NCBI RefSeq assembly: GCF_017355855.1
Contig: NZ_JAFEWD010000012.1
Location: forward strand, 124,001 to 188,000
Direction of reading: 5' to 3'
Length of the DNA stretch: 64,000 nucleotides
Source: Pedobacter sp. SYSU D00535
GTDB taxonomy: Bacteria > Bacteroidota > Bacteroidia > Sphingobacteriales > Sphingobacteriaceae
The notes under the pieces are model-generated. The model searched no databases. It had not been told where the DNA came from and was given only the letters and a program-made list of their open reading frames with translations. The first letter of the stretch is position 1, and the number at the start of each line of letters is the position of its first letter. The position numbers and the translations under genes are program-made. Shown in pieces: positions 41,020-43,747 of the stretch.

Positions 41020-41802
41020 ATGATCCAACCCTTAGCATATATCCATCCGCAGGCAAAAATTGCAGATAACGTTGTAATTGAACCCTTTGTTACTATCCAC
41101 AAGAATGTGGAGATTGGCGAAGGAACCTGGATTGGCCCTAACGTTACCATTATGGATGGTGCCCGCATCGGAAAAAATTGCCGGATATTTCCGGGAGCTG
41201 TTATTTCTGCTGCTCCACAAGATTTGAAATTTGCAGGCGAGGAGACCACCGTCGAAATAGGTGACAACACCACCATTCGCGAATGCGTTACTATTAACCG
41301 CGGCACCAAAGACCGCTGGAAAACCGTAATTGGGAAGAACTGCCTCATTATGGCCTATTGCCACGTTGCGCACGACTGCGAAGTCGGAGACAACTGCATC
41401 TTTTCAAATAACACTACTATTGCAGGTCACGTTACTGTCGGTGATAATGTCGTACTCGCAGGAATGGTGGCAATCCATCAGTTCTGCAAAATTGGCTCGC
41501 ACGCCTTTGTAACAGGCGGTTCGTTGGTGCGGAAAGACGTACCTCCGTATGTTAAGGCAGCCCGGGAACCTCTTTCTTATGTCGGTATCAATTCTGTGGG
41601 ACTTCGGCGTCGCGGTTTTAGTTCGGAAGCCATTAACGAAATTCAGGATATCTACAGGACCCTATTTGTCAAGAAGTATAATATCAGTACAGCTCTCGAT
41701 CTTATTGAGGCTGAACATCAGCCCACGGAGATACGTGATGAGATCTTAGACTTCATCCGCAATTCTAACCGTGGTATCATGAAAGGCTTTTCAGGGGCTT
41801 AG
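41020..41802 (+). CDS. lpxA: UDP-N-acetylglucosamine acyltransferase
   Basis: 260 residues, standard. The beta-helix of hexapeptide repeats (about 1-185) includes HVAHDCEVGDNC with the general-base His, followed by the C-terminal helical domain (about 190-260, RRRGFSSEAI). It performs the first acylation of lipid A. The gene is 3 bases behind lpxC-fabZ, and an ABC ATPase gene follows after 16 bases. Confidence 0.97.
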   Translation: MIQPLAYIHPQAKIADNVVIEPFVTIHKNVEIGEGTWIGPNVTIMDGARIGKNCRIFPGAVISAAPQDLKFAGEETTVEIGDNTTIRECVTINRGTKDRWKTVIGKNCLIMAYCHVAHDCEVGDNCIFSNNTTIAGHVTVGDNVVLAGMVAIHQFCKIGSHAFVTGGSLVRKDVPPYVKAAREPLSYVGINSVGLRRRGFSSEAINEIQDIYRTLFVKKYNISTALDLIEAEHQPTEIRDEILDFIRNSNRGIMKGFSGA

Positions 41803-41818: not shown

Positions 41819-42436
41819 ATGAAGATTTTACTGGAAAATATCGGCCGGCGGTTCAATCGTGAATGGATTTTCAAAAATCTGAACTACACGTTCGAAACGG
41901 GGGAAAGTTATGCAATTTTGGGCAGGAATGGTTCGGGCAAGTCTACATTACTACAGATCATTGCGGGAAGCCTGACACCGTCTGAAGGAAGAATTACCTA
42001 CCTTCAGGATTCGAAGAAGCTGGACCCCGACTACGTTTTCCCTAATCTTAGTATTGCAGCCCCCTATTTGGACCTTGTTGAAGAGTTTACCCTTACAGAA
42101 CTGATCAACTTCCATTTCAAATTCAAGCGGTTTTATGCACATTTCGATACTCCCGCGGTCATCAAGTTATTAGGCCTCGGCTCTTCTCGTCATAAACCGC
42201 TAAAATATTTTTCATCGGGCATGAAGCAACGAACAAAGCTTGCCCTCGCATTTTGTTCAGATACCTCCGTTCTACTGCTTGATGAGCCTACAGCAAATCT
42301 CGATAGCCAGGGAATTGCATGGTACAGAAGCTGCATCGAGACTTTTAGCGAAAGGCGTCTGGTTATTATCTGCTCGAATCAGGAACACGAATACGACTTT
42401 TGCCAAGCCCAACTGAACATCCTTGATTATAAGTAA
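41819..42436 (+). CDS. ABC transporter ATP-binding protein, orphan
   Basis: 205 residues, a single nucleotide-binding domain. Walker A LGRNGSGKST (about 35-44), signature YFSSGMKQR and Walker B VLLLDEPTANLD are all present. No membrane subunit is encoded next to it. Position after lpxA suggests an envelope role, yet the partner must be elsewhere. It could be a CcmA- or lipid-export-type component; I cannot choose. It probably ends the lpx operon, since efp has its own promoter. Confidence 0.88.
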   Translation: MKILLENIGRRFNREWIFKNLNYTFETGESYAILGRNGSGKSTLLQIIAGSLTPSEGRITYLQDSKKLDPDYVFPNLSIAAPYLDLVEEFTLTELINFHFKFKRFYAHFDTPAVIKLLGLGSSRHKPLKYFSSGMKQRTKLALAFCSDTSVLLLDEPTANLDSQGIAWYRSCIETFSERRLVIICSNQEHEYDFCQAQLNILDYK

Positions 42437-42527: not shown

Positions 42528-43088
42528 ATGGCTAAAGCTTCTGATATTAAAAACGGTAATATACTTCGTTTTAACGGCGAATTGGTAGCAGTTGAAGAAT
42601 TTATTCACCGTACTCCCGGTAACCTTCGTGCTTTTTACCAGGCAAGAATGCGGAACGTTAAAACTGGCAAATTGGTAGAATACCGTTTTCGTACTGACGA
42701 AGAGGTGGAAATTTGCCGGGTTGAAACAAACGACTATCAATACCTTTACGAAGATGGCGACTTCTTCGTAGTGATGGATAACACGACTTACGAGCAGTTC
42801 AATATCCCCAAAATCCTTTTCGGAGATGCTGCAAAGTTTATCAAAGAAGGAATGAATGTGGTTATTGCGTTTGAAAGTGAAGAACCAATAATGGCACAGG
42901 CGCCTACGAGTGTTGAATTGGAAATAACGTACACTGAGCCAGCGGTAAAGGGCGACACTTCCACTAACGCTACAAAATATGCAACTGTTGAAACGGGTGT
43001 AGAAATTCGAGTTCCTTTATTTATTAATCAAGGAGATAAAGTAAGGATAGACACTCGTACCGGTGACTACATCGAGCGTGTAAAATAG
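42528..43088 (+). CDS. efp: Elongation factor P, variant loop tip
   Basis: 186 residues with the three-domain EF-P pattern, ending with the conserved PLFINQGDKVRIDTRTGDYIERVK-type OB fold region. EF-P enters stalled ribosomes at proline runs and stimulates peptide bond formation. The domain I loop reads TPGNLRAF at residues 29-36: the position corresponding to E. coli Lys34 (PGKGQAF) is Asn32, and an Arg lies at residue 34. It therefore cannot be lysylated or rhamnosylated at the tip in the known way. The gene is single, with its own promoter and terminator. Confidence 0.95.
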   Translation: MAKASDIKNGNILRFNGELVAVEEFIHRTPGNLRAFYQARMRNVKTGKLVEYRFRTDEEVEICRVETNDYQYLYEDGDFFVVMDNTTYEQFNIPKILFGDAAKFIKEGMNVVIAFESEEPIMAQAPTSVELEITYTEPAVKGDTSTNATKYATVETGVEIRVPLFINQGDKVRIDTRTGDYIERVK

Positions 43089-43171: not shown

Positions 43172-43747
43172 GTGGAGAAACAACTATTAAGAAAGCTATA
43201 TCTGGAGAAACGAAAATCCCTTACACCTCAGGAAGTTGATCAGCTTTCTACTGCTATTTTGAAGCAGTTTCAATCGCTGGACTTTCAAAGCGTCAAACTA
43301 TTACATACCTATTATCCAATTGCTGGGAAGTTTGAATTTAATACACAGATTCTGACGGAATGGCTTCGTCAGGCTCACCCCGAAATCATGCTTGTCCTGT
43401 CGAAAAGCGACCTGCAAAACCACACGCTACAGCATATAATATGGGAAAGAGAAACACCTCTCGCCATGAACCAATGGGGAATTACGGAACCTACGGACGG
43501 TGAAACTGTTGCTGCAACCGAAATCGACATGGTACTCATCCCACTATTAGCCTATGACCTGGATGGCAATAGAATTGGCTATGGCAAAGGGTTTTACGAC
43601 CGGTTTCTGGCTGACTGCAAACCTGCCTGTCTTAAGGTCGGTATTTCTTTTTTTGCTCCCGTTGATGAAAGTTTTGAGACAAATGAACACGATATACCCC
43701 TGGACTTATGCCTTACCCCCGAAAAAATATGGCATTTTAAAAAATAG
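43172..43747 (+). CDS. 5-formyltetrahydrofolate cyclo-ligase
   Basis: 191 residues from GTG at 43172. The nucleotide/folate motif RIGYGKGFYDRFL near residues 131-143 and the N-terminal KLYLEKRKSL basic region are diagnostic. It converts 5-formyl-THF to 5,10-methenyl-THF with ATP. The start lies just after the efp terminator and no strong promoter box is seen, so it may depend on read-through. It is convergent with exonuclease III, 14 bases apart with no terminator. Confidence 0.93.
   Translation: MEKQLLRKLYLEKRKSLTPQEVDQLSTAILKQFQSLDFQSVKLLHTYYPIAGKFEFNTQILTEWLRQAHPEIMLVLSKSDLQNHTLQHIIWERETPLAMNQWGITEPTDGETVAATEIDMVLIPLLAYDLDGNRIGYGKGFYDRFLADCKPACLKVGISFFAPVDESFETNEHDIPLDLCLTPEKIWHFKK

Follow-up and report, generated by a model that had tools for sequence, protein, structure and literature searches.

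Whether elongation factor P (EF-P) has to be modified at the tip of its beta3-beta4 loop is debated, and the single-residue mutants of E. coli answer the question for the E. coli loop only. The closest described relatives of the EF-P studied here form a class with an Asn tip: as far as the available text of the two surveys goes (PMC2821294, PMC6544042), these factors share with it Asn at position 34, Pro at -2 and the absence of EpmA, and that text covers neither their distribution in Bacteroidota nor the NLR module and the Lys replacement in Sphingobacteriaceae that are described below. In the portions available, Asn tips were reported for 2.2% of the EF-Ps in genomes without YjeA/YjeK in 2010 (PMC2821294) and for 2.23% of 1166 EF-Ps in 2019, with Pro at -2 in every case (Volkwein 2019, PMC6544042); they are also listed in the accessible part of PMC11611912, and the searched text of PMC4739656 contains nothing on them. 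EfpL/YeiP has the EF-P fold in common with our protein, and its tip is unmodified according to the available text of PMC11611912. It carries an Arg tip and a longer loop, and our EF-P scored 137.5 bits against its model NF003392, the cut-off of which is 216 bits.

The lysylated EF-P of E. coli (EpmA/EpmB) resembles ours in its three domains, equal loop length and PG turn. Its loop, PGKGQAF, aligns gap-free with PGNLRAF, so that Asn32 falls at the position of Lys34; a Lys tip followed by Gly-Gln contrasts with Asn followed by Leu-Arg, and neither EpmA nor EpmB reached its cut-off in our genome. The rhamnosylated EF-P of P. putida (EarP) likewise has a loop Arg, but at the tip and without Pro at -2, whereas the Arg of our protein lies at +2 and Pro30 is kept. 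The EF-P of C. glutamicum (6s8z), which counts among the closest proteins of solved structure (41% identity), has a Lys tip in PGKGPAF where our loop reads PGNLR. Hypusine-type modification uses a Lys acceptor and the 5-aminopentanolylated EF-P of the B. subtilis type a Lys tip, in place of which our protein has Asn32.

The window, that is, the whole stretch of 64,000 nt that was analysed, contains the following features of the efp locus.

41020-41802, + strand: lpxA, which opens a gene order that is often found, lpxA - ABC ATPase - efp - FTHF cyclo-ligase
41819-42436, + strand: ABC ATPase with a single domain, the gene immediately preceding efp; a member of its cluster takes this upstream place in 85/109 Asn-type loci
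42528-43088, + strand: efp (elongation factor P, 186 aa), with an ATG start; the sole EFP_N match in the genome
42612-42635, + strand: beta3-beta4 loop TPGNLRAF, residues 29-36, from the translation; identical in the best 80 of 566 loci
42621-42623, + strand: codon of Asn32, the residue aligned with E. coli Lys34, from the translation and the Bacteroidota comparison
42627-42629, + strand: codon of Arg34 (+2), which is coupled to the Asn tip (Arg in 68/69 Asn rows and 1/74 others)
43172-43747, + strand: 5-formyltetrahydrofolate (FTHF) cyclo-ligase; a member of its cluster immediately follows efp in 78/109 Asn-type loci

The preliminary description had placed an Asn at the E. coli Lys34 position and an Arg two residues further on, and both the translation and the ungapped alignment with the E. 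coli loop confirmed this assignment; its loop interval, 42615-42640, is replaced by the one listed above, since it starts at Pro30 and overruns Phe36 by five bases. The full loop reads HRTPGNLRAF, with Asn32 at the tip, Pro30 at -2, Leu33 at +1 and Arg34 at +2. All Pfam domains scored above their cut-offs (PF08207, 72.4 bits; PF01132, 75.8 bits; PF09285, 98.1 bits), giving the EF-P layout of a KOW-like domain and two OB domains, and the NCBIfam efp equivalog TIGR00038 scored 235.1 bits, above its cut-off of 185.8. An AlphaFold model (mean pLDDT 65.5, with 57 and 56 in the two loop-bearing blocks; rmsd about 10 to solved EF-Ps) served for the fold only and bears in no way on the tip. No second EFP_N match was found in a profile search of the genome (4.89 Mb, 20 contigs, 99.89% complete), and the EF-P of Desertivirga xinjiangensis (94% identity) was the nearest named homologue among the matches listed.

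The alignment of loops among relatives that had been suggested at the outset gave HRTPGNLRAF in all of the best 80 of 566 confirmed loci, mostly titled Sphingobacteriaceae, and this agreement rules out a sequencing error or chance at the Asn tip. Among 107 distinct gene stretches, which were chosen by this loop and come mostly from Sphingobacteriaceae, synonymous variation was present at all ten loop codons (AAC in 61 and AAT in 46 at the tip Asn), indicating, together with the identical loop protein, that the loop is maintained by selection on the protein.

To place this tip in its phylum, an EFP_N profile search was applied to 392 Bacteroidota genomes, 388 of which gave a match. Outside Sphingobacteriaceae, tips were read in 100 of 380 genomes, one or a few per group and from 38 of 56 family groups; 43 genomes were Asn-bearing, 42 had Lys without Asn and 15 had Arg only, counts that do not equal phylum frequencies because the genomes were picked non-randomly. 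Asn tips were present in 20 of the 38 family groups read, and a single EFP_N match was found for 39 of these 43 Asn-bearing genomes (the tip count does not include a second match in each of G294 and G330). When the loop columns were left out of tree building, 6 changes of the Asn label were needed for 69 of 143 rows. The rarity that the preliminary description implied for an Asn tip is not upheld by these 43 of 100 genomes, and such tips had already been tabulated in 2010 and 2019; the Asn tip is no oddity, and our EF-P, with its Asn tip, Pro at -2 and no EpmA at cut-off, belongs to a class that was already known, though unexplained. The literature searched, in part-available texts and with most subscription papers and supplements outside the search, holds no account of the Bacteroidota distribution of Asn tips, of the coupling to Arg at +2 or of the Lys-tip exchange in Sphingobacteriaceae, nor any experiment on a native Asn-tip EF-P; the Asn tips themselves were already known.

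The tip does not vary alone, as the tip, +1 and +2 residues switch jointly between NLR, NWR or NKR and KGG, KGP, KGA or KGN. Arg occupied +2 in 68 of 69 Asn rows and in 1 of the 74 other rows of the tree, the exceptions being G125, an Asn row with His at +2, and G128, a Lys row with Arg; at +1, Leu, Trp or Lys accompanied the Asn tip and Gly was present in 56/56 Lys rows. Well supported branches of the tree provided 4 independent contrasts for the co-occurrence of Asn and Arg, with 0 opposed (median p 0.125), and with only 4 such contrasts the sign test is unable to reach 0.05.

Within Sphingobacteriaceae, an EFP_N match was present in 201/201 genomes and two matches in 47 (a manual count from the table). 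Tips were read in 68 of the 201 genomes, and 21 of these had Asn only, 20 both and 27 Lys only. The corresponding numbers were 4, 8 and 0 for the 12 genomes from the phylum sample, 5, 11 and 22 for 38 genomes picked mainly for weak scores or two matches, and 12, 1 and 5 for 18 further genomes, many of them small; as 56 of the 68 were hand-picked, many for weak scores, the Lys-only class is enriched. The Lys paralogue has the loop HRTPGKGGAFY, with KGG for NLR, on the same protein scaffold, and 45 Lys sequences formed one clade (SH-aLRT 98). Although the trees nest this clade inside the Asn sequences, that placement is not firm, because a sister position is also compatible with the AU test (p 0.761), and we therefore claim only a single Lys clade. 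A Lys copy is also held by 7 of the best 80 of 566 loci and, in the same genus as our strain, G397 has both tips and G415 Asn only. Among those counted as having both, three genomes of group g186 (G399, G428 and G417) possess, in place of the KGG form, a very divergent Lys-tip copy, HITPGKGNAI; in the g186 genomes of ~2 Mb (L209, L211, L269), this paralogue is extremely long-branched and occurs besides the Asn-tip gene.

In 15 of the 22 Lys-only genomes among the 38 picked mainly for weak scores or two matches, the Lys gene adjoins lpxA/ABC ATPase and/or the FTHF cyclo-ligase gene, which is the slot of the Asn gene. The slot neighbours were not detected in the remaining seven (five of g191, G542 and G574), where the flanks searched extended over 4 kb in G431 and G440 and over 1.5 kb in the others. 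Asn and Lys genes stand in tandem in G080, G138 and G514, with slot neighbours detected for G138 and G514. On a simple reading of the sequences, a duplication and a three-residue change would have been followed by loss of either copy. Each form is found as the sole copy, replacing the other, indicating that both are sufficient housekeeping EF-Ps. A Lys-tip second efp, which the preliminary description had named as a finding that would overturn its reading, does exist in relatives, including the same-genus G397, but was not found in our own genome; its other proviso, that the Asn form might be a specialised paralogue, is contradicted by the Lys-only genomes: as the Lys gene takes the place of the Asn gene there, the Asn form is no specialised addition. 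One family in which either an Asn-tip or a Lys-tip protein is the sole EF-P, often in the same slot, provides a natural test of the need for modification. Asn/Lys sister pairs could reveal loop designs that work unaided and whether Arg at +2 substitutes for a modified side chain, and we regard the exchange with the Lys-tip paralogue as the part most worth following up.

A partner gene beside efp was considered and rejected, as the constant neighbours are lpxA, the ABC ATPase and FTHF cyclo-ligase, unchanged where Lys replaces Asn. The genome-wide search for epmA, epmB and earP that had been proposed was carried out with profile models. EpmA (TIGR00462) and EpmB (TIGR03821) were over cut-off in 0/80 and 0/28 genomes of two sets, our own included; of 14 control genomes, 2 and 1, respectively, were over cut-off, E. 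coli being among those scoring. EarP (PF10093) matched in 0/80 genomes, again including our own, with no control genome scored for this model, so that for EarP the lack of a match does not establish absence. The best EpmA-model match in our genome reached 240.4 bits against a cut-off of 286.9 and lies in a 578-aa open frame, the size of LysRS, and the best match per genome throughout the 80 and 28 genomes lay in open frames of 415-615 aa, also of LysRS size. At E 0.001, our genome gave no match to the EpmB model. Sub-cut-off EpmB matches at this threshold were present in 33/80 genomes (<=261 bits; 0/12 Sphingobacteriaceae); they accompany Asn as well as Lys tips and probably represent lysine aminomutases of the general kind; the second set, 28 genomes that are all Sphingobacteriaceae, had one genome with a 19-bit match.

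The demand for EF-P was approached by sampling Pro-Pro in five genomes, one or two per class, from 20 stretches of 20 kb each (crude ORFs, ~110,000 residues per genome). Pro-Pro was under-represented in all five, with observed/expected ratios of 0.70 and 0.55 in Asn-only genomes and 0.65 and 0.75 in Lys-only genomes, the intervals of which overlap, and of 0.52 in G029 (Lys-tip, f4). Weak rescue by the Asn form, visible as stronger Pro-Pro avoidance, was not clearly seen, as the Asn-only genomes were not clearly below the Lys-only genomes; this is weak evidence that the Asn form is not a poor factor. PPP was counted 5 and 6 times in the Asn-only genomes, 5 and 13 times in the Lys-only genomes (13 in G423) and 0 times in G029. 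The Asn-only G002 encodes PPPNVTG, and the crude ORFs of the window, 18,932 residues in all, contain no PPP.

We consider it probable that our gene encodes a housekeeping Asn-tip EF-P, most likely rescuing ribosomes at consecutive prolines without the known tip modifications. The protein would act on polyproline-stalled ribosomes, its tip would stay unmodified, which we favour over modification of Arg34 and over a new chemistry, and the NLR module may let it work without the known modifications through a contact made by Arg34. The features that point to this proposal are the sole EFP_N match, the conservation in the family, the pairing of Asn with Arg at +2, the lack of EpmA and EpmB at cut-off and the exchange with KGG, often in the same slot. 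In favour of an unmodified tip, the available text of PMC11611912 describes EF-Ps that become functional without modification by virtue of a stiffer or longer loop. The EF-P of C. glutamicum, for its part, is reported to work unmodified. Against the proposal, E. coli EF-P is inactive when Lys34 is changed to A, M, N or Q, the part of the source available describing a change of the tip alone (Volkwein 2019, PMC6544042). From our own data, the points against the proposal are the DHS-like gene of our genome and its association with Asn tips outside Sphingobacteriaceae, the restriction to 4 contrasts with G125 and G128 as exceptions, the absence of PPP from the window ORFs and the 13 PPP of Lys-only G423 versus 5 and 6 in Asn-only genomes, the 7/22 Lys-only genomes with undetected slot neighbours and the EarP search without a scoring control. 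The loop could instead be modified by a still-undescribed enzyme, most likely on Arg34 and less likely on Asn32, which we regard as possible though unlikely. The near-invariance of Arg at +2 with Asn (68/69) is as expected of a modification target, and Arg-tip EF-Ps were long held to be unmodified until rhamnosylation was found. Moreover, the known EF-P modification enzymes are missing from >50% of bacteria, according to the accessible text of Volkwein 2019 (PMC6544042), so undescribed enzymes are likely to exist somewhere. However, KGG replaces NLR in one slot with constant neighbours, and a single enzyme would thus need to act on both loops unless it were dispensable. A match to EarP, the enzyme known to modify Arg, was found in 0/80 genomes, with no control genome scored. 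A new modification chemistry on Asn32 or Arg34, performed by an enzyme that is shared across Bacteroidota (the DHS-like protein being the one candidate followed here) and was kept through the moves between NLR and KGG, appears distinctly doubtful to us.

Modification of EF-P by the DHS-like protein itself deserves very little credence. DS family (PF01916) matches were present in 50/56 and 66/70 genomes of two sets, and the gene of our own genome (contig C13:135883-136794; L257:1501-2412), which at 140 bits lies over the Pfam cut-off, encodes ITWGKLD, which resembles the catalytic Lys motif of DHS. Outside Sphingobacteriaceae, the gene was present in 40/41 Asn-tip versus 9/17 Lys-tip genomes (Fisher 9.6e-5, kinship ignored), an association that kinship may explain and that also fits modification; in the available text of Volkwein 2019 (PMC6544042), DHS-like proteins occur in Lys- and Asn-tip bacteria and modification is considered plausible. 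Within Sphingobacteriaceae, however, the gene is independent of the tip, being present in 57/57 genomes tested, including 22 Lys-only, and it was also found in 8/8 Arg-tip f2 genomes, whereas G279 has an Asn tip and no DS-family match. The protein of our genome scored far below all NCBIfam DHS cut-offs listed, with similar scores for homospermidine biosynthesis, and a polyamine role could explain the gene. DHS adds to a primary amine, which the side chains of Asn and Arg lack; on account of this chemistry, and since presence of the gene is unrelated to the Asn/Lys switch, DHS modification of an Asn acceptor is held to be unlikely. A further reading is that our gene is a specialised or weak paralogue and that another gene encodes the real EF-P, as Lys-tip copies in many relatives and the scarcity of PPP in the samples might suggest. 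This is scarcely credible in view of a 99.89% complete genome without a second EFP_N match, of Asn as the sole form in 21/68 family genomes, of the single match in 39/43 Asn-bearing genomes outside the family and of the lack of any clear extra Pro-Pro avoidance.

Several further observations concern individual genomes and neighbours. EFP_N was absent in G157, G197, G288 and G333 (4/392 genomes, 92-99% complete; G333 was searched twice), owing to assembly gaps or true loss. In group f2, 14/14 genomes read (L184, L186-L191, L193-L199) had an Arg-tip EF-P with NKTARAAAK and no Pro at -2, and EarP was matched in 0/8 of those tested, without a control genome scored for that model. The best NCBIfam match of the ABC ATPase upstream of our efp was the ABC-F ribosomal protection family, at 96 bits and far below the cut-off of 380; ABC-F proteins act on stalled ribosomes too, and the pairing with efp may therefore be meaningful. 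G369 (L121) and G196 (L123) encode, besides the Asn-tip copy, a second EF-P with the loop HVQTGRGGAY (Arg tip, Thr at -2), and G228 (L192) encodes, also besides an Asn-tip copy, a very divergent second EF-P-like protein with a Gln tip, HAGSGQMQGF.
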